Of a stretch of 51,286 nt of DNA, positions 36,348 to 51,286 are shown one piece after another. The stretch's first letter is position 1, and each line of letters starts with the position of its first letter. This stretch comes from Gemmatimonadota bacterium (GTDB lineage: Bacteria > Gemmatimonadota > Gemmatimonadetes > Longimicrobiales > Gaopeijiaceae). The notes beneath the pieces are model-generated. The model had not been told where the DNA came from, did not search any database, and saw only the letters and a program-made list of their open reading frames with translations. The stretch covers positions 1 through 51,286 of the forward strand of contig SLFU01000151.1 of assembly GCA_007124095.1 (NCBI GenBank), written 5' to 3'. Made by a program: the position numbers and the translations under genes.

Positions 36348-39300
36348 CTACTGCTCCCTGAGCACATCGGCCTTCGTGACGTTGACCACGAGAACACCTC
36401 CGGCCTCCGTCGGACCGGAGAGCTTCACGACCACACAGTCGTCCGGAACGCCGGGATCCGTGAAATCGACCGGCGCCACACCACAGGCGGGGGGATTCTC
36501 TCCCGGGAAGGGCAGGGTCGCCCGGATGGGCCCGAGCATCGTGTCGCGGATGTACGCACGACCCAGGAGTTCAAAGTGACGGGTGCCGTGGATTTCGATC
36601 ACTCCGCTCCCTACGGGCACGAAGGCGAGGCTTACTTCCGGGGGAGAATCCAGCGGTCCACCGGAGTGAAGGGGATGGAGGGCCACCCCTCCCCCTCCGG
36701 GCTCGATCAGGATCTCCCCCTCGAGGCCGAGTAGCGGATTGAAGAAGTAGGTGGCGAACAGGCCCCGCCCCACGCTGAGCTGGCCGTCCTCGTTGGATGC
36801 CACTCCGAGCACCCGCTCGCTCACGTTCCCGGTGAGGTCGGCCACGGTGGTGACTCGAGTGAAGGACTTGGCGGCCGCCTGCCAGTAAAAGACTCGGCCG
36901 GTGGGCTCCGTGGACCCTTCCCCGACGACCACGGCGCTGCGATCCCGCGAATGCGCGATGAAGGTCGTATCCGAGAGGCCTACGGCATCCACATCCCACC
37001 CTCCCCTCGAGACTTCGGGCAGGAAGAGGTCGTGAGCCGAGCCCTCGAGTTGAAACTGGCTCCTGAGATCCTCGACAGCCAACCTGGGGGCCTCGAAGGC
37101 ATCGTGAACCCCCGATTGCCACATATCGTTCATGGCTCCCGGGAGATGGGACTCCGCAACGATCCCGGGAACGTTTTCCGTGCGCATGAAGTCGACCTGG
37201 GCAATCGCCCAGCGATCCTCCCCGGGATCCACGTCGAGGAGGAGACTATGGTCCGTAACGAGGCGCACCGCCATGTCCGGGCCGAGGAACTCCCCCAACC
37301 GGATCGTGCCGTCCGGCGCGGCCCCCGTCGGCTTCGTCGAGAAGACGAACCAGCCGTCCGAGTCCTGCGCGAGGAATTGCGGGCGGTCGGAAAAGTCGAA
37401 GAAGGTGCGGTTGAAGGTCAGTCCATCCTGCTCGACCTCCCAGAGAATGGAGTTCGGAGTCGAGATACGATCCACCTCCTGCCCCGCGAGGACATCGACC
37501 TGCGAGATGTTGGTCGCACCCGAGTTCGCGACGTACAAGACGTTCTGGGTGTTGCGATCGAAAGTCAGACCCCACGGCTGGGACCCGACCGAGATCGTGT
37601 TCTCGCGGAAATCCTGGACTTCCGGATCCAGATCGAAGAGCTCGAGCCGGTTGAGACCCATATTCGAAAGGATGAGGAGCCGCTCGTCGTCGTGGACCAC
37701 TGCATCGGCGATCGACCCTCCGTTCGGCAAGAGCACGGTCCGTCCCGATACGACCGCCACGGTCACTCTCTGCCCGTCCTGGCTTTCGGCGATCACGAAG
37801 TCGTCATCCCCCACGGTGATCGTCTCGCAGACGAGCTGTCCGAAGGTGCTCGAGACGGCGGCGGCGCAGTTCGGCGCGGGCAGTCCGTCCTGGTCGACCG
37901 CCGCGTCCTCGGCCCACGCAAAGAAATCCAGATCGAGGGTATCAGGCCGGTTGGCCGGATCGAAGAAAGGCTCTCCGTCGGAATCCACGAAGTCCTGGAG
38001 CATCGTCGGGTCGAAGACGCGGGTCACGGTGCTTCCCACCCCCTCCGTGGTCTCGAACGCGTCGCTGATCCACAAGGTGTCGGCAGGGTTGTCCCTCCGG
38101 ACGGCGCGGACGGTGTACGCCGCCTTCCGGACGCCTGTCCCCCCACTGTTGTCACGCGCGGTCACGCTGACCTGGACGGGGTCGGACGCTTCAATCCGGC
38201 TGGGGTCTCCGGCGGCACCCTGGGGCTCTACGATGATCCGGAGCTCCGGCGGGGTCGTGTCGATCTCGGCCTCGTCGACCACGACCAGCTCGATGAGCGG
38301 CGCGTGACCGTAGATTCCCGTGACATTTCGAGCCCTGGCTCTCAGTTCGAGGGTCCCTGACAGGTCTTCGGGAACGGTGAAGTCGAAGGTCACCTCCAAG
38401 GACGTGGGATCCTGGCCCGGGAAGGCGGTCTCGGCCAAGGTCTCCTCGTGGACACCCGCGAGCTCGACCTCCACCAGCTCGATCCCGGCGGGGTCGGAGG
38501 CGAGCACCCGGATCTGCATCGTCTGCCCTCCAGCGACGGTGTCCCCGGAGTCGAGATCGGGCACCCCGACGCTGGGACCCCCGACGGTGACCGATACGGA
38601 GTCCCTCGACATAAGGCCGAGACCGTCTTCGGCCACGACCCGGATGAAGACTTCCTCGGAGACGGATTCCCCGGTCGGCTGAAGGTACCTCGTCAACGTC
38701 GTGTCTGTCTGCGGGGGGCTGAAGTGCACCGTGCGCGGCAGGAAGCGCTGCACCATTTCGTGGGTCCCGATCCCGCGATCACCCCGGTGGGCGACCCCGT
38801 CGTAGGTGACCCTCACGATGCCTTCCGAATCCTGAAGGTGAGCTCGTACCAGGAGGGAATCCCCCAGCGGGAGCCCACTCCCCGCGGTCGGCTGCTGAAT
38901 CTGGACCGTCGGCGGATCGGAAGTGAGCTGAACCCGAACCGTGTCCGCACCCACGTTCCCCTGCCGGTCGGTGGCCGTCACGATGATCGCGAGCTCCTCC
39001 TCGATCGGGTCCTCGTCCTCGTTCTCCTCGATCGGGATCAGGAAGCGCGTCAACGTCGTATCGGCCGACGGATTCACGAGGTCGAAGTCCCAGGGCTCGT
39101 ATCTCTCGACTACGTGGTCAGTTCCAAGATCGGGATCGCCCCGGAGCGCGACTCCCTCGATCCGGATGTGCTGCACGGCATCGTTGTCCCGCGCCCGGAA
39201 GCGCATTTCGAGCGGGACGCCCACCATCACGTGGGCGTTGGGCGAAGGCTGCAGAATCGAGACTGTGGGGGGGTCTTCGTCGATGAACACAGTCGTGAGC

Positions 39301-40013
39301 GGCTCGTCGGCCTGAACCGAGCTTCGGTTGCCCTCCAGGTCGACCGCAAATCCTTCCACGGCGAATTCCCCCACCTCGAGATCCTCGGGGATCGTGTACG
39401 GGAAGCCCCGCTCGGCAGTTCGACCGGAGACCGTCTCCGATCCCTCGGTGATGGTGTCCCCTTGAGCGGAGACGATCCGGAAGCCGACTGAAGCGAGCCC
39501 GATGTTATCCTCGGCCCGGACCACGACCTCCATCTCGTGGCCGAGCCCGACCACCACCGGAGAGAACGAAACGGAGACGGATGGTGGGGCTCTGTCGAAG
39601 GCGCGAACGTTCCCCTCCACTGTGCGACTGAGATTTCCGTGGATGTCCGCCGCCTGGACCGAGACCGCCACGATCGTGTCCGTGATTACCGCAGGGATGG
39701 AGAAGGTGACCTGCTCACTCACATCCGAGGAGCTGGTGCTCGGGACGGCAACCTCCGTCGCATGGAAATCCCCTACCTGAGCGCTCACCGCGATGGAGTC
39801 GACGGCGGTGAGTCCGGAAACCCGCACGCCGACCCTGAGATCTTCCCCCGAGTCCACTGAGGGAGGAAGCTGTAGCTCCAGGATCTGGGGACCGACTCCC
39901 ACACCTGGCCCGAAGAGGTTGTGGCCGTCGCATCCCCAGGCGAACACACCCACGGAGGCTCCATAGAGCACCCATCTGCGCAGCCTCACCAGTCGATTCG
40001 GTCTTCCGGACAT
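36348..40013 (-). CDS. Very large predicted surface lipoprotein downstream of pilQ
   Basis: 1,221 residues from ATG 40013 (GTG 40025 also possible). A basic N-terminus and hydrophobic run end in AWGC, a loose lipobox, suggesting lipidation at Cys28. Residues about 40-720 look like consecutive Ig-like beta-sandwich units. Two of these (about 250-480) are clear internal repeats, sharing V-A-x-RGD-x3-GT and the DTTLTR motif. Residues about 745-1100 look like a YncE-type beta-propeller (e.g. PWGLTFDRNTQNVLYVANSG). No catalytic motif is seen. It starts 21 bases after pilQ, so it is probably part of the pilMNOPQ operon and acts at the cell surface or with the secretin. Family not recognised. Confidence 0.9.
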   Translation of the reverse strand: MSGRPNRLVRLRRWVLYGASVGVFAWGCDGHNLFGPGVGVGPQILELQLPPSVDSGEDLRVGVRVSGLTAVDSIAVSAQVGDFHATEVAVPSTSSSDVSEQVTFSIPAVITDTIVAVSVQAADIHGNLSRTVEGNVRAFDRAPPSVSVSFSPVVVGLGHEMEVVVRAEDNIGLASVGFRIVSAQGDTITEGSETVSGRTAERGFPYTIPEDLEVGEFAVEGFAVDLEGNRSSVQADEPLTTVFIDEDPPTVSILQPSPNAHVMVGVPLEMRFRARDNDAVQHIRIEGVALRGDPDLGTDHVVERYEPWDFDLVNPSADTTLTRFLIPIEENEDEDPIEEELAIIVTATDRQGNVGADTVRVQLTSDPPTVQIQQPTAGSGLPLGDSLLVRAHLQDSEGIVRVTYDGVAHRGDRGIGTHEMVQRFLPRTVHFSPPQTDTTLTRYLQPTGESVSEEVFIRVVAEDGLGLMSRDSVSVTVGGPSVGVPDLDSGDTVAGGQTMQIRVLASDPAGIELVEVELAGVHEETLAETAFPGQDPTSLEVTFDFTVPEDLSGTLELRARARNVTGIYGHAPLIELVVVDEAEIDTTPPELRIIVEPQGAAGDPSRIEASDPVQVSVTARDNSGGTGVRKAAYTVRAVRRDNPADTLWISDAFETTEGVGSTVTRVFDPTMLQDFVDSDGEPFFDPANRPDTLDLDFFAWAEDAAVDQDGLPAPNCAAAVSSTFGQLVCETITVGDDDFVIAESQDGQRVTVAVVSGRTVLLPNGGSIADAVVHDDERLLILSNMGLNRLELFDLDPEVQDFRENTISVGSQPWGLTFDRNTQNVLYVANSGATNISQVDVLAGQEVDRISTPNSILWEVEQDGLTFNRTFFDFSDRPQFLAQDSDGWFVFSTKPTGAAPDGTIRLGEFLGPDMAVRLVTDHSLLLDVDPGEDRWAIAQVDFMRTENVPGIVAESHLPGAMNDMWQSGVHDAFEAPRLAVEDLRSQFQLEGSAHDLFLPEVSRGGWDVDAVGLSDTTFIAHSRDRSAVVVGEGSTEPTGRVFYWQAAAKSFTRVTTVADLTGNVSERVLGVASNEDGQLSVGRGLFATYFFNPLLGLEGEILIEPGGGGVALHPLHSGGPLDSPPEVSLAFVPVGSGVIEIHGTRHFELLGRAYIRDTMLGPIRATLPFPGENPPACGVAPVDFTDPGVPDDCVVVKLSGPTEAGGVLVVNVTKADVLREQ

Positions 40014-40034
40014 GATTCCGCTCACTCTCCCGCC

Positions 40035-41840
40035 TCAGCGGCGGTTGATCTGGGGAGTTACGAGAATCATGAGATCCCGTTGGTTCGTCTCTTCGCGAGT
40101 GTGTCGGAAAAATCGACCGAGGAGGGGCAGCTCCATCAGCAGGGGTATCCCGATTCTGAACTCATCCCGCTCGGTCACGGTCAACCCCCCGATGACCACG
40201 GTTTCACCGTCCTCCACCAGGACCCGTGTCAACGCCTCTTGCGTGTTGAACACGAACCCGAGGTCAGCTTCCCGGATCTCAATCCCGGACCGCTCCGCAC
40301 GGAGTTCCATGAGAATGAGGTCTCCTGCGGTGACGTGGGGTGTGACCTCGAGCAGGATCCCGGTCTCTTCGATCTGGACCGTTGCCTGCGGGAAGGCTCC
40401 GTCCTGGGCCCCCGGTCCGCCTCCGGCGGCGTCGATCACACGGATCGGTGTGCGCTCGCCCACGAGGATCCTGGCCTGCTGGTTGTCGAGCACTCGGACC
40501 TGGGGGGCGGCCTGCACGTCGCTGAGGCTTCTCGACTCGAGCGCCTCCACGAAGCTGATGAGGGTGTGGCGGCCAATGACGAGTGAGGTCAGGAATTCGA
40601 GAGAGGGATTCACGACCCGGGAGTTGGCATTTCCCAACGCCGCAATCGAGTTTCCGCCGAGGGAGACCACATTCGTCCCGACCGGCACCGTCTCATCGGT
40701 TCCCGCCCCGGCGTCTCCGGTCTGTCCGGGCGTGAGCGTGTTGAGCTGGTTTCCCCTGGAATCCTTGAGGTCGTAAACAACGCCGAAATCCTCGAGGTCC
40801 GTGCGATTCACGAAGATGATCTTGGCTGAGATCGTGATCTCGGGGGTCCGCAGATCGAGCCCCTCGACGAGCTCCTCCACGGCATCGAGAACTCTAGGGA
40901 TGTCGGTTACCACGAGTGAATTGGTCGATCCGCTGATCGAGATCCTCCCTCGGGAGCTGAGGAGGCTCTCCACCGACCCCTGGAGCTCCTGGGCATTCGC
41001 GTAGTTCACGCGGAACGGCCGGGTCGTGAGCTGCTCCACGTCCTCGCGAGCCGTGAGATCCTCGAGTCGATCCACCCGTATGATTCCGGATGCCGCCTCC
41101 TGGGCGGCGAGACCGTGTGACTCGAGGATGGCCTGGAGAGCGATATCCCAGGGCTGATCCCGGATTTCGGCGTTGACCGTACCCGCTACCTGGGCCCCGG
41201 GAACGATGGAGCGACCGGAGAAGTCCGCAAAGGTGAAGAGGACATCTCGCAGGGGGGTGTCGGTGAACGACACCGTGATCCGTTCAGCCAGGTCCGAAAC
41301 GGCGATTCCGGTCCATCGGGCCGGCCGGACTCGAGGAGCCGCGCTGGCCGGTGCCACTCCTTCCAACGGGGTCGAAGCCAGGGGGCCAGCCGAAAGATCG
41401 GATGTGTCGCCTGAGCCGGCTCTCCAGGCCTCCCAGGGTTCGAAGGCCTCGTACGAATTCTCCATGGAGATCCGCACATAGCCATCTCCCGAGAGTAGCG
41501 AGTACCCCATAGGGGCATCCACCTCGACCACGACCCGAACGATCTCCTCGGAGTATTGGCTGGCTCGGATCCGGCGAATTCCGCCGCGCTCGATGTCGCT
41601 GAACACCTCCTTGGAGAGGGCAAAGCGAGCATCCATCAGGTCGAGCACGATCCGATCCGGTCCCTCCATCGTGAAGTCCCGGGTCTCCACGCTCCCCTCC
41701 AGGGAAATCACGATCTCCGTGCGGTCGGCCGAGGGCAGGACCTGGAGACCCGTGACTTCTCCAGCACGTTCACCCGACGTCGGACCACCGGTGAGCAACG
41801 CCAGCGCCACTGCGGTCCAAGTCGTCACCAGGAAGCTCAT
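40035..41840 (-). CDS. pilQ: Type IV pilus secretin PilQ
   Basis: Outer-membrane channel through which the pilus leaves the cell. 601 residues from ATG 41840 (overlap ATGA with pilP). A signal peptide covers about 1-23. One AMIN-type domain (about 27-130) is followed by a linker, an STN domain (about 190-250; VSFTDTPLRDVLFTFADFSG), a secretin N1 domain (about 265-335) and the secretin domain (about 340-600; VQIEETGILLEVTPHVTAGD, VIGGLTVTERDEFRIGIPLL). It is somewhat short for PilQ, with a single AMIN domain visible. Confidence 0.96.
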   Translation of the reverse strand: MSFLVTTWTAVALALLTGGPTSGERAGEVTGLQVLPSADRTEIVISLEGSVETRDFTMEGPDRIVLDLMDARFALSKEVFSDIERGGIRRIRASQYSEEIVRVVVEVDAPMGYSLLSGDGYVRISMENSYEAFEPWEAWRAGSGDTSDLSAGPLASTPLEGVAPASAAPRVRPARWTGIAVSDLAERITVSFTDTPLRDVLFTFADFSGRSIVPGAQVAGTVNAEIRDQPWDIALQAILESHGLAAQEAASGIIRVDRLEDLTAREDVEQLTTRPFRVNYANAQELQGSVESLLSSRGRISISGSTNSLVVTDIPRVLDAVEELVEGLDLRTPEITISAKIIFVNRTDLEDFGVVYDLKDSRGNQLNTLTPGQTGDAGAGTDETVPVGTNVVSLGGNSIAALGNANSRVVNPSLEFLTSLVIGRHTLISFVEALESRSLSDVQAAPQVRVLDNQQARILVGERTPIRVIDAAGGGPGAQDGAFPQATVQIEETGILLEVTPHVTAGDLILMELRAERSGIEIREADLGFVFNTQEALTRVLVEDGETVVIGGLTVTERDEFRIGIPLLMELPLLGRFFRHTREETNQRDLMILVTPQINRR

Positions 41841-42508
41841 GACCAACCTCCGTTCCCGTTCGCTTCGTGATCCGTGAGGGCCTCGCCGGTATTGTCCAGG
41901 AGCCCCTCCCCCTCCTGGTCCTGCCTCTCGACATCCTGCGGGGGCGTTTCCACCTCCGGTCCTTCCCCAGCCGCCCCGGGAGCGGTGTCCCCGGGAGGGA
42001 GCCCGGGACGCGTCTCCGCACGCCGGAGTTGGAGGGTTCGGGTTTCGGTCAGGCCGAACTCCGCGACCGCCACGAGGATCTGCCGGGGACGGATCTCGAT
42101 GACGCGGACGTTCCCCAGCGTCTCGCCCTCCCGCACCCGGTACGTGGCCGAGGCCGCCTGCTGGCTCGGCCCAGCAGATCGGGTACCGAGGAGTGCGACC
42201 GAGCCCCCCCCTCCCGTCGACGAGATCACACCCAGGAGAACCAGGTCCTCGAATCGAGGCCCGACATCGTCTTCTCCCGTCAGGGCGCGAAAGGGGTTCC
42301 TCCGTTCGAAGGTCGGGTAGCTGAACACCTCCCGTTCGAAGACGAGGTCCACCGTATCGCCATCCGAGGGGGCAGGCCGGTCCTGAAGGAGGATCCCGGC
42401 CGGCTCCGGTTGTCCCAACACGGCTCCGACCCGGAAGCCAATCGCACAGAGGAGTCCGACAGCCAGGAGGGCCGAGGCCCCCTTCTGCAACGTACCCGGC
42501 CGCGTCAC
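41837..42508 (-). CDS. pilP: PilP-like type IV pilus alignment protein
   Basis: Links the inner-membrane PilN/PilO complex to PilQ. 223 residues from GTG 42508. An N-terminal membrane segment (about 10-32) is present. Typical PilP places a short motif before a small beta-sandwich; here it reads YPTFERRNPFRAL (about 64-76), followed by the folded part LVLLGVISS to TRTLQLRR. The C-terminal 50 residues are acidic and disordered. No lipobox Cys is found where proteobacterial PilP has one. The assignment rests on the NPF motif and position between pilO and pilQ. Confidence 0.85.
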   Translation of the reverse strand: MTRPGTLQKGASALLAVGLLCAIGFRVGAVLGQPEPAGILLQDRPAPSDGDTVDLVFEREVFSYPTFERRNPFRALTGEDDVGPRFEDLVLLGVISSTGGGGSVALLGTRSAGPSQQAASATYRVREGETLGNVRVIEIRPRQILVAVAEFGLTETRTLQLRRAETRPGLPPGDTAPGAAGEGPEVETPPQDVERQDQEGEGLLDNTGEALTDHEANGNGGWS

Positions 42509-43122
42509 CCCTGCAGCTCCTCGGGGAGCTCGGAGCCCTCGCCCGGAGCCGGGCCTCCTGGAAGGACGTACGTCTCAATCCAAAAGCGCGCGGTGACCGG
42601 TGCCACCAACTCCGCCTGTGGTGCGGGCCCCGTGTACGGTGCGAGGTCCAACCCGATCGGGGTGACAATCCGGGGGAGGGACGCGACCGCGGTCAGAAAC
42701 CTTCCCACATCGTGGAACTCCCCGACTACCGAGACCTCATAGCTCTGCCGTGTGTAGAACTCTCCAGGCATCGAAGGCTCGGGCCGCATGGATGCCAGGT
42801 CGACTCCCGCTCGCTGGGCTTCCATCGCCATCGAGTTGAGCAGCGCAGGGACCTCTTCGCTCTGTGGAATCAACTCCTCCAGTCGCTCCACGTGCCGCTC
42901 GTAGATGATCAGCCTCGCTTCGAGCTCCTCACCCCCTCGAGCCGCCAAGATCTGAGCCTGCCGGTTCTGGTCTTCGAGCTGGGTCAAGTGCGCCTGAAGC
43001 TCCTCCACCTCCACGACCCGGGGCGAGTACCAGTAGTCGTAGAACATCCAGAGCGCTGCGAGGGACGCGATGATCACGATCAACGCGATCTGCTTGGGCC
43101 TCTCCTTGGGGATGAGGGCCAT
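42505..43122 (-). CDS. pilO: Type IV pilus inner-membrane protein PilO
   Basis: Partner of PilN in the alignment complex. 205 residues: a short cytoplasmic N-terminus, one membrane helix (about 12-30, IALIVIIASLAALWMFYDYWY), a coiled coil (about 36-90), then a ferredoxin-like periplasmic domain (about 110-190; YEVSVVGEFHDVGRFLTAVASL is characteristic). Position between pilN and pilP supports it. The stop overlaps the pilP GTG start by four bases. Confidence 0.93.
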   Translation of the reverse strand: MALIPKERPKQIALIVIIASLAALWMFYDYWYSPRVVEVEELQAHLTQLEDQNRQAQILAARGGEELEARLIIYERHVERLEELIPQSEEVPALLNSMAMEAQRAGVDLASMRPEPSMPGEFYTRQSYEVSVVGEFHDVGRFLTAVASLPRIVTPIGLDLAPYTGPAPQAELVAPVTARFWIETYVLPGGPAPGEGSELPEELQG

Positions 43123-43125
43123 GGC

Positions 43126-43818
43126 TCAGCTCTCCTCTTCCCCGGAGGGCGGCACGACCGACGGACCGAAGAGGGGAACGCTCTCGATGACCCCCGCGGG
43201 GGGTTCCTGCGTGGAGGCCTGGAGTATGAACTGATGGACGACCGTTTCCGCACCGTCGGCCCCGGAGATCGAGGTCTGATCCGAGCCGATGAGGCGAACG
43301 CCTCGAATAAAGGGGGACGCCTCCAGGTTTTCCATGAAGGTAGTGAGAGCGAAGTAGGTGCCCGCCGCCCCATCGATCTGAAAGACGAGGTCGCCGCCCC
43401 CTCCCGAGACCTGGCTGAGGCGCATCATCCAGGTGAAATCGGGGAGCGCCCGCGCCACCTCATCCATTACATGGGGCCAGAGGTAGCGATCTCCGTCGAT
43501 CCCCTGAATGATTTCCACCCTCCTCGCGATCGAGTCACGCCTCGCCTGCAGGGTCTGGGAGCGTTCGATCATATCAGCGAGCCGAATGGAGTCGCTCGCC
43601 GCCGCCTCGATCCGGACCTCCAACTCCTCCGCCTGCCCCGCAACCGCGAAGAAGAGCCAGAGGATTCCCAGGAGCGACATCCCGACCGCGAGCCCCGCAT
43701 ACGCCGTCCATCGGTCCACCCGAGGCATCGACCCCGAGAACCGCGGGAGAAAGCGGGTGAGCTTGACCCGTCGACCGGCCCGCCTCCCTCCCCCGGGGAG
43801 GAGATTGACCTCGATCAA
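43126..43818 (-). CDS. pilN: Type IV pilus inner-membrane protein PilN
   Basis: Binds PilM through its cytoplasmic N-terminus and pairs with PilO in the periplasm. 230 residues from TTG 43818. The start is well supported: GGAGG lies six bases upstream, and the product begins M-IEVNLLPG, the conserved PilM-binding peptide. One membrane helix (about 39-58), a coiled coil (about 60-95) and a ferredoxin-like domain follow. A proline-rich tail ends the protein. It starts 19 bases after pilM. Confidence 0.93.
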   Translation of the reverse strand: MIEVNLLPGGGRRAGRRVKLTRFLPRFSGSMPRVDRWTAYAGLAVGMSLLGILWLFFAVAGQAEELEVRIEAAASDSIRLADMIERSQTLQARRDSIARRVEIIQGIDGDRYLWPHVMDEVARALPDFTWMMRLSQVSGGGGDLVFQIDGAAGTYFALTTFMENLEASPFIRGVRLIGSDQTSISGADGAETVVHQFILQASTQEPPAGVIESVPLFGPSVVPPSGEEES

Positions 43819-43837
43819 GGCGCCCTCCTCTCGTGCT

Positions 43838-44875
43838 TCACGGTGTCCTGAGCGCCAATCCCAAGGGGAGGAGGAGCATCGGCCCCGCCTCGTCGAGGAC
43901 CAGGTTGAGAGGCGCATCCGGACGCACCGGCACTCGCTCGAAGGGGTTTACGAGTCGCGTCTCGACTCCCATACGACTTCCCAGCGCCTCGGCCATGCCC
44001 GGGATCCGTCCCCCTCCTCCGCTCAGGTAGAGGCGGCCCAATCCCGCACCAGGGTGCTGGGTCATCAGGAAGGCCGCCCCCCGCTCCACTCCCACGGCGA
44101 CCTCCTCGGCGCTCTCTCGAACGAAGTCGACCGGATCCTCCATCTCCGTTCGACCCTGAACCACCTCCTCCGCGGCCTCAGTGGTCAAACCCCGTTCCCG
44201 CTGGAGGCGCTCCCGGATCTTTCGGGAGCCGAAGGGAACGTCTCTCGTCAGGATCGGAACGCCGTCCTCCATGATGTTCACATTCGTAGTTTCGTGTCCC
44301 ACGTTCACCAGGGCCACGATCCCCTCCAATCCCTCCGGATGGTTGTGCTCGAAGCCGTTGTGGAGGGCAAAAGCGTCCACGTCGATCACAGTGGCCTGCA
44401 AGCCGGCCCCCACGAGAACGGAGAGCTTGTTCTCCACGAGCTCCCGCTTCGCCGCCACCAGCAGGACTTCCATCTGGGGACCGTCGGCCTCGGGATTCAG
44501 GATCTGAAAATCCAACTCCACGCTCTTGATGTCGAAGGGAACGTGCTGCTCCGCCTCCCAGCGGATGACCTCTCGAGCGTCGGCCTCCTCCATTCGGTCC
44601 ATGTCGATCTTCTTGATGATGACATCGTGCCCCCCGATCGCCGTGATCACCTCCTTGTGCTTGAGGCCGGCCTCCTCGACCAGGTCGCGGACCGTGTCGG
44701 CGACCAGCCCCGGGTCCATGATCTCTCCCTCCACGATCGCATCGGGAAGGAGGGCCCGCATGACAACCCGGACGACCTCGGGCTGGTCGCCGGAGTGATC
44801 CACCTCGATGAGCTTGATGAAGCCGCTGCCGATGTCCAGACCGACGGAGGTCTTCTTCTGGCCGAACAGGGCCAT
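43838..44875 (-). CDS. pilM: Type IV pilus assembly ATPase-like protein PilM
   Basis: Cytoplasmic actin-like protein that binds PilN. 345 residues. Actin/FtsA-fold signatures: VGLDIGSGFIKLIEVD (about 11-26), ALVNVGHETTNVNIMEDG and LYLSGGGGRIPGMAEAL. ATG 44875 has GGAG upstream. First gene of pilMNOPQ, with a promoter candidate in the 127-base gap before it. Confidence 0.96.
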   Translation of the reverse strand: MALFGQKKTSVGLDIGSGFIKLIEVDHSGDQPEVVRVVMRALLPDAIVEGEIMDPGLVADTVRDLVEEAGLKHKEVITAIGGHDVIIKKIDMDRMEEADAREVIRWEAEQHVPFDIKSVELDFQILNPEADGPQMEVLLVAAKRELVENKLSVLVGAGLQATVIDVDAFALHNGFEHNHPEGLEGIVALVNVGHETTNVNIMEDGVPILTRDVPFGSRKIRERLQRERGLTTEAAEEVVQGRTEMEDPVDFVRESAEEVAVGVERGAAFLMTQHPGAGLGRLYLSGGGGRIPGMAEALGSRMGVETRLVNPFERVPVRPDAPLNLVLDEAGPMLLLPLGLALRTP

Positions 44876-45002: not shown

Positions 45003-46169
45003 TCAGAAGGATGCACCCGTCAGATCCACCCAACTCCTCTCGGCGAGGGGCTCGAGCCGGGACAGGGTCTCGCTCAACTCGAGCGACCGCCTCACCGCGC
45101 AACTCGAATAGTCGATGTTCGGAGTTCCAGAGAGGGTGCTGGCCGACTTCGCCGCGACCGCGCCGGTCACCCGCGGGGTGCCCGCGGCCGCCGAAAACTC
45201 CCCCTGCACCAGAATGATCCCGCTGAAGTGGGCGTTGCCGTGCATCTCCAGATCGCCCTCGACCAGGAGCACCCCCTGGCCGAGCGCGCTCCCTCCGATC
45301 GAGACATTCCCCGTGACGTGGATGACGGGATAGTAGTTCAAGCAATCGTCGTCGGTCGAGGTGGGCTCCGGGGTGCCCCAGTTGTTGGGATCGGAGACGT
45401 CGCAGCCCCCCCCCGAGGTGTAGCTCGGCCCGGGCTCCACCGCGGTCGCTGTCACGACCTTCGTGGCGAGGCCAATGAGCTCGTTCCACATCTCGTCGAC
45501 CGAGGCCATCTGCTGCTGGACCGCCTGCACGTCCTCCTGGATGCAGGGAGTGCCCACGTACTGGTTCGGGCACTCCGCTCCCCCGGGCCATGGGGAGGCG
45601 GTGACCTCCGACGCGTCGTCGGTCATCACACCGGGCTTCGGGGTCAGGGGATTGGGGCACATCTCGCTCGTCCAGAGCGCCGGGACCTGGTCGCTTCCGT
45701 CCACCTTCCTCGGAGCCCCCTGCGCGTGCACCCCACCCTGGATCGTGAGGGCGGCCGGAGGATTCAGATTCGCCGTGGCCAGCCGCGCGAGAAGCCCCAC
45801 GGTACGGGTCGCGGGCGCCTCCCGCGCCTGGACCTCACCCGTCGTGCGGATGAAGTAGAGCCGGTCGTCCACCTGTCGAATCACGGCCTCCCAGTCCCCC
45901 TGACCGGTGCTCCCCGTCAGAGTCACCGGTTCTCCCCAGGCAGTGATCCCGGCCGCCCCCGCGTTCCAGGTGCCGAGGACGGTATTCATCCCACTCTCGG
46001 CCACGTAGAAGGCTCGGGCGGCCTGCCCCGTCGCTTCCCCGATCCGGGACTCCTGCGTGGCGATCTGGATCCCTCCGGTGATGAGCAATCCCACCACCAC
46101 CAGTCCGAGGATGGCCGCCGGAAGGGCGAAGCCGTCGGAGCGCCCCCGGAGGCGAGTCGATTTCTTCAT
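45003..46169 (-). CDS. PilX-like pilus protein, module A
   Basis: 388 residues from ATG 46169. The N-terminus is prepilin-like: a basic leader, then G|FALPAAILGLVVVGLLITG, without the Glu5 of ordinary pilins, as in PilX-type proteins. A helix (QAARAFYVAESGMN) follows. The middle (about 150-270) holds several cysteines. The C-terminal part (about 285-360) is made of short glycine-rich repeats (GNVSIGGSALGQGVLLVEGD, GNAHFSGIILVQGEF), suggesting a beta-helix. It is the last gene of module A, 33 bases after pilW-A. Likely a minor pilin or tip component. Confidence 0.82.
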   Translation of the reverse strand: MKKSTRLRGRSDGFALPAAILGLVVVGLLITGGIQIATQESRIGEATGQAARAFYVAESGMNTVLGTWNAGAAGITAWGEPVTLTGSTGQGDWEAVIRQVDDRLYFIRTTGEVQAREAPATRTVGLLARLATANLNPPAALTIQGGVHAQGAPRKVDGSDQVPALWTSEMCPNPLTPKPGVMTDDASEVTASPWPGGAECPNQYVGTPCIQEDVQAVQQQMASVDEMWNELIGLATKVVTATAVEPGPSYTSGGGCDVSDPNNWGTPEPTSTDDDCLNYYPVIHVTGNVSIGGSALGQGVLLVEGDLEMHGNAHFSGIILVQGEFSAAAGTPRVTGAVAAKSASTLSGTPNIDYSSCAVRRSLELSETLSRLEPLAERSWVDLTGASF

Positions 46170-46202
46170 GATGCTTCTCGTCCCATGAGAGCTTCCCAGA
46201 GG

Positions 46203-47045
46203 TCAGTTTCGAAGAAACACTGCGGTGGTCAGGGTGTCGGCCACCGTGTGCCCCCACTCGTCCCTAGCCGGCGAGGCCGTTCGGAGGGTGATCCGGACCC
46301 GCGCCACATCAGAGGGATCCCCTGCGGTCATACCGTCGACCGCCAGATACTCGAACTCCAATCCCACCCCGGCCTCGAGGGGGCCCACCAGCCGGGCCAC
46401 GCTCCCGTCGAGGGCGCGTGCGAGGTGCCATCCGTCCTCGAACTCTTCAAGCCCATACTCCACCTCCTCCCAGGCCCTGACCGGGGCTCCCCTTCGGACC
46501 CTCGTGAACTGCGAGTCCGAAAGTCCTCCGAGGATGATCTGCTCGGCAGCGATTTCGCCGTCCCCGGACCCACAGAGATGGCCTGTCTGCACACCACTCA
46601 CCGACGAGATCAACCACTCGTCGTCAACGGTGAGCCCAGGATCTCCATCCGCAAAGACATAGAGCGACTCTCCCAGGCGAAACGATCGGCCCAGGTGAGC
46701 GACGGTTACCGCACGGGAGGAGACGCCCCCAACCTCGCAGACCACCCCATAGGCCCGGAACGCCCGGAATCCCACCCTCCCCTCGTCGGTCACCAGGAGA
46801 TCGCCTCCGGAGGCGCTCACCTCCCTGAGCTCCTGGGCAAGCAGGGAGAGTCCGGCCCGGAGCGCCTGCTGACTCTGCACCTGCTCTCGCTGGACCGCGG
46901 AGACTCGTTGGTTGCTCACCAGCACCTGATAGACGGCCCCCATCAGGAGCGCACCGATCACGATCGCAACGAGGAGCTCGACGAGGCTGAAGCCCTCCCT
47001 CGAACCTCCCCTCGGTCCGTTGCGCACCCCACGAACGCGGTTCAT
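46203..47045 (-). CDS. PilW-like minor prepilin, module A
   Basis: 280 residues from ATG 47045, which overlaps the end of the pilV-like gene (ATGA). Classical type IV prepilin N-terminus: a basic leader, the cleavage site G|FSLVELLVAIVIGALLMG, and a long helix (SQQALRAGLSLLAQELREV). The remainder is a beta-rich globular domain with Cys residues near 136 and 170. Its length and position between PilV-like and PilX-like fit PilW. Confidence 0.87.
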   Translation of the reverse strand: MNRVRGVRNGPRGGSREGFSLVELLVAIVIGALLMGAVYQVLVSNQRVSAVQREQVQSQQALRAGLSLLAQELREVSASGGDLLVTDEGRVGFRAFRAYGVVCEVGGVSSRAVTVAHLGRSFRLGESLYVFADGDPGLTVDDEWLISSVSGVQTGHLCGSGDGEIAAEQIILGGLSDSQFTRVRRGAPVRAWEEVEYGLEEFEDGWHLARALDGSVARLVGPLEAGVGLEFEYLAVDGMTAGDPSDVARVRITLRTASPARDEWGHTVADTLTTAVFLRN

Positions 47046-47425
47046 CGGCGGCCGACCAGGTATTCAAAGGTATCCGCCACGACCGGGGAAATACCGGGGG
47101 CGGCGCCTACGCTCCCGGGGGTCCGCCCCGGTCCCACCACGACGACCTGCATCCGCTTCCATCCAGGAGCTTCCTCCTCGATCGACCAGGAAAGCTCGAA
47201 GTGCCCGTGGAGGGCCGCACCGCTGTTCAGCTCTTCGAGTGGGGTCGCCCTCACTTCCTCCATCGCGGCCTGAAACGCGGCGGTCCGGTGAGTTTCGAGA
47301 CGAGCGAGGTCGACCGAGCGGATCACCCATCCCGTTCCGGCAGCGAGCCCCAGGATCCCGACCGCGAGGACGAGCATCGAGACGATGAGCTCGATCAGAG
47401 TGAGTCCGGAGCGATTCAGCTTCAC
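47042..47425 (-). CDS. PilV-like minor prepilin, module A
   Basis: 127 residues from GTG 47425, which shares bases with the stop of the preceding fimT-like gene. A very short leader (VKLNRSG) precedes the cleavage site G|LTLIELIVSMLVLAVGILGLA. The TRTAAFQAAMEEV-type helix and a small beta domain follow. The L-V-L-A-V-G-I-L-G pattern is typical of PilV/GspI-type minor pilins. Position +1 is Leu instead of Phe. Confidence 0.87.
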   Translation of the reverse strand: MKLNRSGLTLIELIVSMLVLAVGILGLAAGTGWVIRSVDLARLETHRTAAFQAAMEEVRATPLEELNSGAALHGHFELSWSIEEEAPGWKRMQVVVVGPGRTPGSVGAAPGISPVVADTFEYLVGRR

Positions 47426-47883
47426 GGCGTCACCGCCTGGCCGAGCGGCAGGAGAACCACGGTCGAAGCCCGGTCTCCGCGAACGAAGTTGACGCGGGCC
47501 TCCTGAGAGAAGGAGTTGGCATTGATATCTGCATAGCCCCTGGGAGTCATGCATACCCAGAGTGGCCCTCCACCGGTTTCGAGCGTCACGGCGTGGACGG
47601 CCGCAAAGCTTCGCGATTCGATCACCACCCCACCGTCCCCGCACCCCTCCTCGATGCTTACCATCCCGCTCGTGGGATCCACCCGCAGACGGATCGCTCG
47701 TCCCCGCTCCACTGCGAGAGCCCGGGTCTGTCCGTGCATCGAAAGAAAGTTGGACTGGGCCGAGCGCACACCAATCCGTGCTTGAACGTCACCGAAGTTC
47801 GCGACGGCAATGCCCGCGACCAGGGCCCCGATGGCCAGGACGATCACCACTTCGAGGATGGTGAACCCCCCTTGAGCCTGCAT
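47422..47883 (-). CDS. FimT/GspH-like minor prepilin, module A
   Basis: 153 residues from ATG 47883, which gives a compact leader MQAQGG before the cleavage site G|FTILEVVIVLAIGALVAGI. An upstream in-frame ATG at 47973 follows a perfect Shine-Dalgarno sequence and would give a 36-residue leader. I prefer 47883 because of leader length, a GAGG upstream and a sigma-54-like element overlapping the other start. The helix SAQSNFLSMHGQTRALAVERG and the short beta domain match FimT/GspH. First gene of module A. Confidence 0.85.
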   Translation of the reverse strand: MQAQGGFTILEVVIVLAIGALVAGIAVANFGDVQARIGVRSAQSNFLSMHGQTRALAVERGRAIRLRVDPTSGMVSIEEGCGDGGVVIESRSFAAVHAVTLETGGGPLWVCMTPRGYADINANSFSQEARVNFVRGDRASTVVLLPLGQAVTP

Positions 47884-47961
47884 GCTGAAGCCTCTGAGCG
47901 TCGGGGATTCGTGCGTTTCCCCTCGGATGACGGAGCGCCGAATGCCTCCTCCACCCGAATA

Positions 47962-47977
47962 AGCCAGTTTCATGCCA
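47962..47977 (-). promoter_or_regulatory. Candidate sigma-54 promoter of minor pilin module A
   Basis: On the minus strand TGGCATG (47977-47971), four bases, then TGGCT (47966-47962). The GG and GC dinucleotides are ten bases apart, as sigma-54 promoters require, and ten of twelve consensus bases match (TGGCACG-N4-TTGCW). Transcription would begin near 47951, about 68 bases before the preferred start at 47883. Two sigma-54 activators are encoded in this window. Confidence 0.4.
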
Positions 47978-48037
47978 TAAGTGTACCTCCTTCCCCACGG
48001 CTACGGAACCAGTCACGAACAGTCGGAATCCGGCAAT

Positions 48038-48059
48038 CTTTTCCGATCGATCGGAAAAG
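48038..48059. promoter_or_regulatory. Perfect 22-base palindrome between pilin modules
   Basis: The half-site CTTTTCCGATC (48038-48048) is followed directly by its exact reverse complement (48049-48059). It lies 18 bases after the end of module B and about 97 bases upstream of the candidate sigma-54 start of module A. It suits an enhancer site for a dimeric regulator, or a terminator stem for module B; no T-tract follows on the transcribed strand. Confidence 0.6.
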
Positions 48060-48077
48060 TCTGCCGCTTGCAAACCC

Positions 48078-49019
48078 TCAAAATCGCCCGAGGCGATCCC
48101 CTGTTGAGATCCGGTGGGTTCGGTTCAGGGCTGGCTGACCCAGGGCGGCGGCCGCCCAACCACGACACCCGAGGATCCGCCCATTCCCTTGGAGGTGGAC
48201 GGTGCCCCCCACCATGACCACGCCCTCCACGACCGCTTCACCCAAGACATGGAGGTCGCCCGCCGACAACACGAGCCCTCGAAGCCGAGAGGCTCCATCG
48301 AGGGTCAGGTCGCCCAGTGAATAGAGGATCCCCGAGGCCGAGCCCCCAGCGATTCGGCCGCCGGGCTCCGCCCGGAAGATCCGGAAGTCCACGTCGCCCA
48401 TCTCGCCGACCGCAGGAAAGGCGCTTCCCCCCGCGATCTCGATCGCCGACAAGTTCTCGAAGTCCTCCAGCCCCAGGATTCCGATGCGGGGAGGGTCGGG
48501 GAGGGGTGGATCCGGAGCAGGCTCCGGGTCCGGCGGCCGCACCCGGATCAGCGGAGCCGCAGCCCCGGGGATCGCTGGACATCCCGCTCCCGCTCGCTCC
48601 ACTCCCGAGTCCGGGGGGTCGAAGCCGACGCCAAGGGCCGCCGGGAGTGCGGCGGCCACCGAGTCCGGATCAAGGCGCCACCGGACACCCATCGCAGCAG
48701 GCCGCCCCGGCTCCACGATCGCCCGCACCTGTTCGACTCCCCCGGGAAGCCCGAAGATGGCTGACGGATCCGCCCCACCGCTCTCACCCGACCAGCCCTC
48801 GGCGTCGAGCGGGGCCCGGCCCTCTTCCCCGATGTCGGGCTCTGAGGCGAGCGATCCTTCTTCCAGGACACGACCCTGCAAGTAAAGGACTCCCCGGCGC
48901 TCGAGTAGAAGCTCTGATCGGATGAGAACGAGGACCGAGGTCGCGAGGGCCGAGAGTGCCAGCACCACGAAGAGGGCCACGGGGAGCAGAATGCCCCGTC
49001 GAGATCCGATCCGGCTCAC
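48078..49019 (-). CDS. PilX-like pilus protein, module B
   Basis: 313 residues from GTG 49019, overlapping the stop of the preceding gene. N-terminal VSRIGSRRG|ILLPVALFVVLALSAL is a prepilin-like leader and helix without Glu5, like PilX. A proline-rich linker (RPPDPEPAPDPPLPDPPR, about 185-205) leads to a C-terminal array of short hydrophobic glycine-rich repeats (GILYSLGDLTLDG, GLVLSAGDLHVLG, GVVMVGGTVHLQG) that suggest a beta-helix. The architecture parallels the module A PilX-like protein. Function inferred as a minor pilin or tip component. Confidence 0.8.
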   Translation of the reverse strand: MSRIGSRRGILLPVALFVVLALSALATSVLVLIRSELLLERRGVLYLQGRVLEEGSLASEPDIGEEGRAPLDAEGWSGESGGADPSAIFGLPGGVEQVRAIVEPGRPAAMGVRWRLDPDSVAAALPAALGVGFDPPDSGVERAGAGCPAIPGAAAPLIRVRPPDPEPAPDPPLPDPPRIGILGLEDFENLSAIEIAGGSAFPAVGEMGDVDFRIFRAEPGGRIAGGSASGILYSLGDLTLDGASRLRGLVLSAGDLHVLGEAVVEGVVMVGGTVHLQGNGRILGCRGWAAAALGQPALNRTHRISTGDRLGRF

Positions 49020-49759
49020 TCCATCCCCCACGACTCCAGCCCCATTCCCGACACAGTCCACTCGAAAGGTTGGACTTGTCCGACCTCGCCCACCGGTAGG
49101 ATCTCGATCGTCACCTCGAGTGCGCGGGCTTCGGCGCCGGCCCATGTGAACCGGCTCTCCGGCCCAACCCTCTCGGGAGTCAAGGGCTGCCGCCCCCCCT
49201 CTCCTCTCCGGTACCGGAAGGCCCCGTCCACCAGGTGGTACTCGCCCCGCTCGAACACCCGCACGAGGGCTGGAGCAGGCGCCTCGGGTTGGGACCAGCT
49301 CCCGGTGAGCACCCTCTCCCCGGGCTCGGACTCGCAATCCCCGGTTCCCACCACCCCCACCAGGTCGAAAGCCCTCCAGCCTCCATCCACCCCGAGTACG
49401 AGTACGGAGTCGCGCGCGGGTTCGGGAAGCCTACGTCCACGGTACGCGACCACCCAGCGATCCTCATGCTCGGCCCCGGAGCAGATCCTACCCACCCCCC
49501 TGAACGCGCGGAGCCTCAGCACTCCCTCGTCATCCACGGTCCAGTCCCTGCCCGCGAGGCCCGGTCGTACCTCTTCGTCGAGGACGACCCAGATCGTGCG
49601 AATGACTTCGAGGGCCTCGGCGCGCAGGATGAGGGACTCGGTCCACTTTAGCGAGCCCCTCAGCACACCGACGAAGGCTCCGAGGACCGCAATGCCGAGG
49701 GTGAGGGCCAGCAGCATCTCCAGAAGCGTGGCACCTGTGGAACTCTGTCGGGTCTTCAC
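49016..49759 (-). CDS. PilW-like minor prepilin, module B
   Basis: 247 residues from GTG 49759, overlapping the preceding stop. Leader VKTRQSSTG, then G|ATLLEMLLALTLGIAVLGAF with Glu5 but Ala at +1 in place of Phe. A long helix follows (SLILRAEALEVIRTIWVVLDEEV), then a beta-rich domain with Cys residues. The size and the place before the PilX-like gene match PilW of module A. The shared gene order is better evidence of equivalence than sequence similarity by eye. Confidence 0.82.
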   Translation of the reverse strand: MKTRQSSTGATLLEMLLALTLGIAVLGAFVGVLRGSLKWTESLILRAEALEVIRTIWVVLDEEVRPGLAGRDWTVDDEGVLRLRAFRGVGRICSGAEHEDRWVVAYRGRRLPEPARDSVLVLGVDGGWRAFDLVGVVGTGDCESEPGERVLTGSWSQPEAPAPALVRVFERGEYHLVDGAFRYRRGEGGRQPLTPERVGPESRFTWAGAEARALEVTIEILPVGEVGQVQPFEWTVSGMGLESWGME

Positions 49760-50196
49760 CTTCCCGCCCCCCGACCCGAGCTGCCTCCCTCGAGCCTCCA
49801 CCTCCGGGGCTCCCGGAACCCGGTCGAGAGCACCTCCTCCCTCGCACTCGCTTGATCGACCCCGTGTGGGGGATCATATCGGACGATCAACTCCCCCTCG
49901 GCGGACGTCTCGGCGGTGAGGGTGCCCGGACCGGCGGAGCGAACCGATCCGTTCCCCTCCCCCCCGCCACCGTCGTGGAGCTCGGAGAGGAAGAGGGAAG
50001 CCCGCACCCCGAGCTCCGCGCCCTCGATCTCCCTACCTGCCTGCCAAAGCACGCGGGCCGTGAGGGTCCCTCCGACCGAGAGGATCAAAAGCGCCACGAG
50101 CAGCTCAGCTAGGGAGGCCCCGACTCGACCATCCCACCGACCCGAACCACCCCTCCGCGAACAGGGTCTCGATCCCGCTTCCAGACGCGCGGTCAT
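49756..50196 (-). CDS. PilV-like minor prepilin, module B
   Basis: 146 residues from ATG 50196, which overlaps the stop of the fimT-like gene (ATGA). A leader of about 26 residues is followed by G|ASLAELLVALLILSVGGTLTA, with Glu5 present and Ala at +1. A short helix and a small beta domain follow. The C-terminus is basic and glycine-rich. Equivalent in position to the PilV-like gene of module A. Confidence 0.8.
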   Translation of the reverse strand: MTARLEAGSRPCSRRGGSGRWDGRVGASLAELLVALLILSVGGTLTARVLWQAGREIEGAELGVRASLFLSELHDGGGGEGNGSVRSAGPGTLTAETSAEGELIVRYDPPHGVDQASAREEVLSTGFREPRRWRLEGGSSGRGAGR

Positions 50197-50684
50197 CGTC
50201 GAACTCGTCCGTAACTGGAGATGACGAGCCGCCTCTCGGCATTCCTGCGAAAGAGCACGAGGGTGGTCGAGGCGAAGGCCGCCACTCCGAGGGGACCGTA
50301 GACCAGCTCCGCCGAAGTCCGATCCCCGACCACCTCCAGTTCGACCCCACGCTCGGCGAGGGACACGCTCAGGAGTCGTTCGAGCTCCGGGTGCTCGGGA
50401 GAGGCCCCGGGCTCAGCTCTACCGCTCGGAACGAGGAGGACGGGATCGGCGTGTTCCTCGACGACCACCCAGGCGGCTCCGTGGACCCGAGCCTCCATCC
50501 GTGCCTGATGGATGAGGGCGATCAGTTCCTCTGTCACGCCCCGAAGAACGAGGGCGTCCGACTGATTTCGGAGAGGTATCGTCAGAAGCTGGGCGGCCAC
50601 ACCCAGAAAGAGGAGCCAGAGAACGAGCTCGGGCAGGGTGACTCCCAGGGGACCAGCGGCCGGAGGTGCTTGGAGCCGATGCAT
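50193..50684 (-). CDS. FimT/GspH-like minor prepilin, module B
   Basis: 163 residues from ATG 50684, with GGAGG about eight bases upstream; a GTG at 50699 is also in frame. Leader of about 14 residues, then G|VTLPELVLWLLFLGVAAQLL: Glu5 is kept, +1 is Val. The helix LRGVTEELIALIHQARMEA and the beta domain that follows match FimT/GspH. First gene of module B, starting 43 bases after the PilR-like regulator gene. Confidence 0.82.
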   Translation of the reverse strand: MHRLQAPPAAGPLGVTLPELVLWLLFLGVAAQLLTIPLRNQSDALVLRGVTEELIALIHQARMEARVHGAAWVVVEEHADPVLLVPSGRAEPGASPEHPELERLLSVSLAERGVELEVVGDRTSAELVYGPLGVAAFASTTLVLFRRNAERRLVISSYGRVRR

Positions 50685-50727: not shown

Positions 50728-51286
50728 TCAGTCGGCGTCCAGGCCGTACTCCTGGATCTTGTAGCGGAGAGCGCGGTCGCTCAGCTCCAGCAACTGGGCC
50801 GCGTTCCCCCGGTGCCCTCCCGTCCGCCTCAGCGCCGCCCGGATGAGCTCCTTTTCGAGCTCTGCGCCTCGGCGCTTCACCGAAAGTTCGAACTCCGTCG
50901 AATCGTTCGACCCCGCGTCGGAGAGAGTCGGGACGAACTTCACCGAAGGCTCCCGCACTCCTTTGGGGAGGTCCTCGAGCTTCACCTTCGAACCCTCGGC
51001 CAGCACGAGCGCCCGCTCGAGGACGTTCTCCAGCTCACGGACATTTCCTGGCCAGGGGTACGCGATCAGCGCGTCCATCGACTCGGGAGACACCTCCTCG
51101 ACCTGCACACCGAGTCGCTTCCGGTGCAGGGCGAAAAGGTGCCGAATCAGGTGAGGCACGTCCTCCATCCGCTCGCGCAGGGGAGGGAGATCAACCGTCA
51201 TCACGGCAATCCGGTAATACAGGTCCTCGCGGAACCGTCCCTCCTCGACCTCCTGTTCGAGCGAGCGGTTCGTCGCGGCCACGATC
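50728..51286 (-). CDS. PilR-like sigma-54 response regulator, C-terminal part
   Basis: The last 185 codons are visible and the N-terminus lies beyond the window. The AAA+ domain end reads ATNRSLEQEV, then GRFREDLYYRIAV, PPLRERMEDVP and PWPGNVRELENVLERAL. A linker follows, then a Fis-type helix-turn-helix (GGHRGNAAQLLELSDRALRY). This is an NtrC-family activator. Its place directly upstream of a minor pilin operon suggests PilR, the regulator of type IV pilin genes; the receiver domain that would settle it cannot be seen. Confidence 0.88.
   Translation of the reverse strand, partial: IVAATNRSLEQEVEEGRFREDLYYRIAVMTVDLPPLRERMEDVPHLIRHLFALHRKRLGVQVEEVSPESMDALIAYPWPGNVRELENVLERALVLAEGSKVKLEDLPKGVREPSVKFVPTLSDAGSNDSTEFELSVKRRGAELEKELIRAALRRTGGHRGNAAQLLELSDRALRYKIQEYGLDAD

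Follow-up and report, generated by a model that had tools for sequence, protein, structure and literature searches.

Type IV pilus machines that work with several sets of minor pilins have already been described in Myxococcus xanthus (PMC7541494) and Xylella fastidiosa (PMC9956873). M. xanthus carries three minor pilin clusters, one major pilin and one machine; either cluster_1 or cluster_3 alone is sufficient for piliation, and PilX homologues without Glu5 occur (PMC7541494). In this study we analyzed a contig of 51,286 nucleotides (SLFU01000151.1, positions 1 to 51,286, assembly GCA_007124095.1; hereafter the window) from a Gemmatimonadota bacterium of the Gaopeijiaceae (Longimicrobiales), whose type IV pilus locus contains two complete quartets of minor pilin genes, modules B and A. 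These are paralogous quartets, which probably provide alternative priming and tip complexes for a single type IVa pilus machine. An earlier note on this DNA had remarked that most type IV pilus loci have one such set, a fair description that nevertheless has to accommodate the multi-set machines of M. xanthus and X. fastidiosa. No description of Gemmatimonadota minor pilins was found in the literature searched.

The locus resembles M. xanthus clusters 1-3 (PMC7541494, PMC13190605) in combining several paralogous FimU-PilV-PilW-PilX sets with what appears to be one type IVa pilus machine, in having PilX proteins without Glu5, and in the sets being divergent in sequence with conserved gene order. 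The M. xanthus clusters, however, form three separate loci, each with PilY1, whereas the quartets described here are arranged in tandem between pilR and pilM, in a locus with no recognisable PilY1, and their PilX proteins are predicted to carry a beta-solenoid. The modules are not members of the minor pilin/PilY1 cluster family. X. fastidiosa provides a second parallel, with duplicated pilE/V/W/X and fimT sets that have diverged in function, and with FimT3, a GRxR-containing DNA receptor (PMC9956873). Its sets differ from those of the window in being spread over two regions of the genome and in including PilY1 and PilE, and FimT3, one of three paralogues, does not belong to a complete second set of the ComZ-like kind.

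A combination of minor pilins with a GspK-like tip pilin bearing an ice-binding-protein-like beta-solenoid is also found in the pilA1-pilA2-pilA3-comZ competence locus of Thermus thermophilus (PMC6561018), but the ComZ solenoid is larger (approx. 380 residues) and that bacterium has one set, compared with two here. The first protein of module B (B1) is similar to FimT of Legionella pneumophila and its relatives (PMC8897410), a pilin of the GspH/FimT family with a C-terminal GRxR; the latter protein is gammaproteobacterial and often encoded by an orphan gene, whereas B1 is the product of the first gene of a complete Gemmatimonadota quartet.

Organization of the two quartets

The window is contig C183 of a 2.8-Mb genome assembly (242 contigs, 95.8% complete), and all of the genes discussed are located on its minus strand. 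The order of genes in the locus is pilA-pilS-pilR-[B]-[A]-pilMNOPQ. As the earlier note had proposed, modules B (50684-48078) and A (47883-45003) are two complete, colinear FimT-PilV-PilW-PilX-type quartets, made up of eight intact open reading frames (ORFs) and separated by exactly 194 bases (47884-48077). All eight ORFs encode a prepilin-like N terminus, consisting of a cleavage-site glycine and a hydrophobic helix. Position 5 is occupied by Glu in subunits 1-3 of both sets, by Val in B4 and by Ala in A4.

Module B encodes (i) B1 (50193-50684), a FimT/GspH-type minor pilin (PF12019, 28.4 bits against a cut-off of 21) that ends in ...SSYGRVRR, (ii) B2 (49756-50196), of the PilV/GspI type, judged from its position, a weak TIGR02523 match and a best, though weak, match to A2 with trimmed profiles, (iii) B3 (49016-49801), of the PilW/GspJ type, which aligns with A3 in hhalign and falls into a clade with the B3 proteins of other tandem loci, and (iv) B4 (48078-49019; the start codon is uncertain, 49019 or 49031), of the PilX/GspK type with a predicted beta-solenoid domain, assigned from hhalign alignment to A4 and an AlphaFold2 (AF2) model. 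B3 and B4 alone gave no significant match to Pfam or NCBIfam families, and their identity is clear only via relatives. The genes overlap by 4, 46 and 4 bases.

Module A encodes A1 (47422-47883; FimU/FimT/GspH type, partial TIGR01708 match and hhalign alignment to B1), A2 (47042-47425; PilV type, partial TIGR02523 match), A3 (46203-47045; PilW/GspJ type, partial TIGR01711 match and tree position) and A4 (45003-46169; PilX/GspK type), in which an ice-binding-protein-like beta-solenoid is predicted within a pilin fold, as in ComZ. A1, A2 and A3 pass the N_methyl threshold; the GspH-like match of A1, the PilV-like match of A2 and the PilX_N and pAdhesive_15 matches of A4 are sub-threshold. A1-A2 and A2-A3 overlap by 4 bases each, and 33 bases separate A3 from A4. 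The distance from pilR to B1 is 43 bases and that from A4 to pilM is 127 bases.

The residues at the pilin +1 position are as the earlier note had given them (Val, Ala, Ala and Ile in B1 to B4; Phe, Leu, Phe and Phe in A1 to A4), but they do not distinguish the modules cleanly: they vary among B orthologues (Y/H/F/V/T and so on), while A orthologues have F, or F/L in A2. The difference in module B is thus a relaxation and not a fixed alternative.

Paralogy of modules B and A

BLAST comparisons among the window proteins gave weak matches, the best being A3-B3 (30% identity over 172 residues, E 2e-6). We therefore relied on gene position, a tree of the third subunit and hhalign comparison of profiles, since iterated profiles drift and mix the A and B labels for subunits 2 and 4. 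For the profiles, orthologues were picked by their location in 13 tandem loci and in a small number of loci with one module, and 32 residues were removed from the N terminus of each mature protein to prevent the universal helix from contributing to the score. Like subunits matched like: A1-B1 with 96.6%, A3-B3 with 96.7% and A4-B4 with 99.9% probability. A2-B2 reached 14.5% (E 0.002) and was still the best pair for either protein, and every unlike pair scored at most 2.9%. These matches indicate that B and A are paralogous blocks. The simplest reading is that a colinear block duplication produced both modules.

In a tree of 74 copies of the third subunit (PilW), the B and A clades are separate with support of 100/99. 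In each tandem locus of this lineage, B is the upstream copy and A the downstream one without exception, and the split is therefore older than the radiation of the lineage. The PilX tree has long branches; most upstream copies lie apart from the downstream copies, and L034 and L035 are not cleanly placed. In other Gemmatimonadota all copies are of the A type, and in some (L039, L079) a younger duplication has occurred separately.

Conservation and distribution

Neither set is decayed. The eight genes contain no stops or frameshifts, and the dN/dS values between the window and its genus-mate L007 are 0.16-0.31 for B and 0.12-0.18 for A, compared with 0.06-0.13 for pilM/pilN; these values are rough because synonymous sites are near saturation. 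Both modules are under purifying selection, and module B evolves faster (52-66% identity between the genus-mates vs 68-81% for A). The two sets are likely to have different jobs.

When 154 genomes of the order were searched with profiles (thresholds set at approx. 120 bits for B3 and approx. 100 bits for A3), B was detected in 93 and A in 46. Both modules were present in 41, B alone in 52 and A alone in five, so that the set with the odd +1 residues is the more widespread one in this order. Thirty-one of the 41 genomes with both have them on one contig (28 at a distance of 2.7-5.4 kb and three at approx. 6.1 kb), and ten on different contigs. Complete genomes G025, G023 and G005 have the B quartet directly upstream of pilM, without A, and the same position of B is found in G012. 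In G007 a complete A quartet lies on a contig separate from the pilM locus. Together, the B-only pilM loci and the separate A quartet of G007 suggest that each quartet is able to stand alone.

Other arrangements were also observed. In L018 (6135-9820), module A is replaced by a different-looking set between B and pilM, which encodes FimT-, PilV- and PilW-like proteins and a PilX-like protein of 579 residues, as if tip cassettes had been exchanged at this site. In G007, several A-type PilW genes, whether full or partial, lie on different contigs (six profile matches; C25, C7 and others), and the number of tip sets in this genome may exceed two. The sister genome has a third set, which is partial and comprises PilV, PilW and PilX (L142, G001:C138, 5192-7739); the PilX-like protein has 520 residues and a solenoid (DUF7305/pAdhesive_15). 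From this set the PilV gene alone was seen in the genome of the window, at a contig end (G000:C9). The count of two sets in the earlier note is thus too low, although both sets it described are complete.

Predicted structure of the fourth subunits

The AF2 model of A4 (pLDDT 87.7) starts with a long helix, continues into a pilin sheet and a beta-solenoid, and closes with a final strand. Among solved structures, Foldseek ranked ComZ of T. thermophilus first (6qvi, E 9.8e-5) and ice-binding proteins next. VIA comparison gave Z 16 for ice-binding proteins (residues approx. 120-345), Z 10.2 for ComZ (247 residues aligned, rmsd 10.2) and Z 9.7 for PilA of Streptococcus sanguinis (residues 30 to 373); the large rmsd to ComZ probably reflects a difference in how the two domains are oriented. 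The model firmly supports a GspK-type pilin fold carrying an ice-binding-protein-like beta-solenoid in A4. The B4 model has a pLDDT of 76.5, with lower quality in the part that follows the helix, and gave Z 9-10 for the ice-binding-protein solenoid and Z 7.0 for ComZ, with Foldseek E above 0.1; B4 can thus be described, less firmly than A4, as a ComZ-like tip pilin. ComZ binds DNA and has been argued to occupy the pilus tip only.

The GRxR motif of the first subunits

DNA-binding FimT proteins have a C-terminal GRxR, whose arginines contribute to DNA binding in Legionella FimT; in the adaptor FimU the motif is ill-defined (PMC8897410). B1 shares these sequence features, belonging to the GspH/FimT family and ending in GRxR, and A1 lacks the motif. 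Among orthologues chosen by position, the C-terminal motif is present in 16 of 17 B1 and in none of 14 A1 proteins (Fisher P 6e-8, not corrected for relatedness, which inflates the significance). Composition shuffling produces it in 2% of cases per sequence. Wider counts of the motif came from sequences found with B1 itself, and the contrast is therefore drawn from the position-chosen set only.

A ComEC homologue is encoded in the genome (contig C12). In the two families that bear B, ComEC was found in 87 of 93 genomes with B and in 14 of 40 without it, a difference that we do not use as support: ComEC also weakly tracks A, a third family has ComEC without B, and phylogeny and incompleteness are uncorrected. 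The proposal that one of the sets serves DNA uptake thus receives indirect support from the motif in B1 and the presence of ComEC; it is suggestive that module B would be the DNA tip, if either set is.

A putative sigma-54 promoter between the modules

Promoters recognized by sigma-54 have a -24/-12 consensus with a characteristic GG/GC spacing. A pattern match with this spacing, TGGCATGAAACTGGC, is located upstream of A1 (47977-47963, minus strand); it is the sole match in the window, where 0.08 would be expected. Twelve further loci of relatives each contain a single exact match to TGGCAYGRAWCTKGS, a count that leaves out near-duplicates of the window and of L007. Among these loci the element precedes A1 where the modules are in tandem, and most tandem loci have a matching element there; in L011, L012 and L030 it immediately precedes pilM. 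Module A is absent from the pilM locus of L011 and L012, and L030 is a short contig. The intermodule gap, which had been called regulatory, does contain one conserved sigma-54-like element, and this element seems to mark the start of an (A)-pilMNOPQ unit. Its position before A, or before pilM where A is missing, suggests that B and A can be expressed separately.

An unrelated gene on the opposite strand lies between B and A in L021, L023 and L027, which also argues for their separate transcription. By eye, its product resembles a membrane-bound spermidine synthase and does not look like a component of the pilus.

Activators of the PilR type act on sigma-54 promoters, and control of the putative element by PilR is a natural guess. 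Scans for sigma-70 promoters and terminators revealed nothing convincing. The gap also contains a perfect palindrome of 22 bases, CTTTTCCGATCGATCGGAAAAG (48038-48059, approx. 18 bases after B4); this is absent from L007, and no role was assigned to it.

Other genes of the locus and components of the pilus machine

At the edge of the window, upstream of B1, lies the C-terminal part of a PilR-type sigma-54 response regulator (50728-51285; Pfam Sigma54_activat, AAA_lid_14 and HTH_8), truncated by the contig end. Contig C144 of the same genome encodes PilA-PilS-PilR, and the end of its PilR repeats ATNRSLEQEVEEGRFREDLYY, found at the window edge. A base-level test detected no overlap between the ends of the two contigs; their junction is deduced from the shared PilR protein sequence and from L007/G001, whose genes have the same order, with that for the major pilin upstream of pilSR on one contig.

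Downstream of module A are pilM (43838-44875; PF11104, 208 bits), pilN (43126-43851; PF05137), pilO (42505-43122; PF04350), a probable pilP (41837-42508), assigned by position since Pfam gives no match, and pilQ (40035-41840; start taken as 41840), which encodes a secretin with an AMIN domain (PF00263, PF11741). Relatives retain the linkage of the quartets to genes of the pilus machine. This PilQ is the only secretin found in the genome. The only T2SSF protein (PilC) is encoded on contig C8, beside ATPases of PilB and PilT size; further PF00437 ATPases are encoded elsewhere, without platform proteins. One secretin and one PilC imply that both quartets serve one machine; within the 95.8% completeness of the genome, it is unlikely that a further pilus machine or a distinct type II secretion system is present.

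Neither quartet contains a PilY1 gene or any other additional gene, and no T4P_PilY1 match was obtained among the Pfam-scanned proteins of the locus. A genome-wide search with PF05567 was also negative, but controls and relatives gave no match either. Nine bases after pilQ begins a gene (36348-40025, minus strand) for a protein of 1225 residues with Big_7 bacterial Ig domains and a C-terminal half that appears beta-propeller-like by eye. Its relatives are encoded downstream of pilM-pilQ in many Gemmatimonadota loci, including those with a single pilin set, and it is a possible surface or tip adhesin that might substitute for PilY1.

A second PilA-like major pilin candidate is encoded away from the pilus locus (G000:C192:18326-18403, L002). 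The globular part of this protein was found in 13 of the 154 genomes, and the gene did not track A, B or their co-occurrence among them.

Possible roles of the two quartets

We favour the interpretation that B and A provide alternative tips for one machine, following the precedent of the M. xanthus clusters. Each quartet would form a self-contained tip complex, composed of an adaptor of the FimT/U type, PilV, PilW and, at the very tip, a ComZ-like PilX. Both would use PilMNOPQ from this locus and PilB, PilT and PilC encoded elsewhere, and the cell would make pili with alternative tips. Module B would belong to the pilA-pilS-pilR transcription unit and module A to the pilMNOPQ unit, behind its own sigma-54-like element, and such separate units would allow the proportions of the two sets to differ in expression. 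For a DNA-binding tip, module B is the stronger candidate, and for an adhesion or motility tip, module A. In a stronger form, which we offer tentatively and regard as doubtful, this division of labour would date from the origin of the lineage, with a DNA-capturing B tip (GRxR FimT plus ComZ-like protein), an adhesion or motility A tip and, as the switch of a single machine without PilY1, a PilR/sigma-54 promoter located between the two modules.

Several points weigh against the alternative-tip interpretation. The assembly consists of 242 contigs, and a second machine could be missing from it. No PilY1 was found, whereas each M. xanthus cluster needs its own. The GRxR motif may be a consensus of the GspH/FimT family, kept by B1 and lost by A1, and B1 of the window is slightly acidic (net charge -3), with a charge of +6 in its last 30 residues. 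The structural predictions are of single chains and are compatible with a combined tip of eight pilins.

Such a joint tip, in which all eight minor pilins would form one longer hetero-oligomer with B and A as obligate partners, would agree with the tandem, same-strand layout kept across many genera. It appears quite improbable when set against the 52 genomes with B but not A, the five with A but not B and the ten with the modules on different contigs. The sets also appear to be in separate transcription units, and both include a PilX without Glu5, of which a filament would hold one terminal copy, if the GspK and ComZ models apply. The idea that the quartets prime different pili, raised in the earlier note, could be realized if each had its own major pilin (PilA of C144 and the PilA-like protein of C192) on the same machine. 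The genome does contain two PilA-like genes and one machine, and T. thermophilus has two kinds of pili, wide ones of PilA4 and narrow ones of PilA5 (PMC7203116). Two such fibres are possible but unlikely here, since the second protein is confined to 13 of 154 genomes, follows neither module nor their co-occurrence, and has no detectable orthologue in most two-set genomes.

The faster evolution of B, its relaxed +1 residues and the absence of A from many genomes might be expected if one set were a redundant remnant drifting to loss. This is very unlikely, because dN/dS is well below 1 in all eight genes, whose reading frames are intact, and because B, although it evolves faster, is retained in more genomes than A. 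Involvement of one set in secretion, also suggested previously, would make it a type II pseudopilus (GspHIJK), and the N-terminal parts of A1 and A3 do score best against GspH and GspJ models. These scores are far below the cut-offs, however, the secretin and the T2SSF protein are both accounted for by the pilus, and both fourth subunits are predicted to carry a ComZ/ice-binding solenoid in place of the GspK helical insert. As no GspD secretin or GspF platform of its own for such a system was found in the genome (95.8% complete), we rejected this assignment as extremely improbable.

Exchange of tip complexes is a leading answer to the question of how one pilus machine performs motility, adhesion and DNA uptake, and alternative tips at this locus would extend multi-tip pili to the Gemmatimonadota. 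The locus also suggests that the role played at the tip by PilY1 in Proteobacteria and Myxococcota may be taken by PilX subunits with a beta-solenoid. With B only, A only or both beside seemingly the same machine, about a hundred related genomes provide a clean natural comparison.

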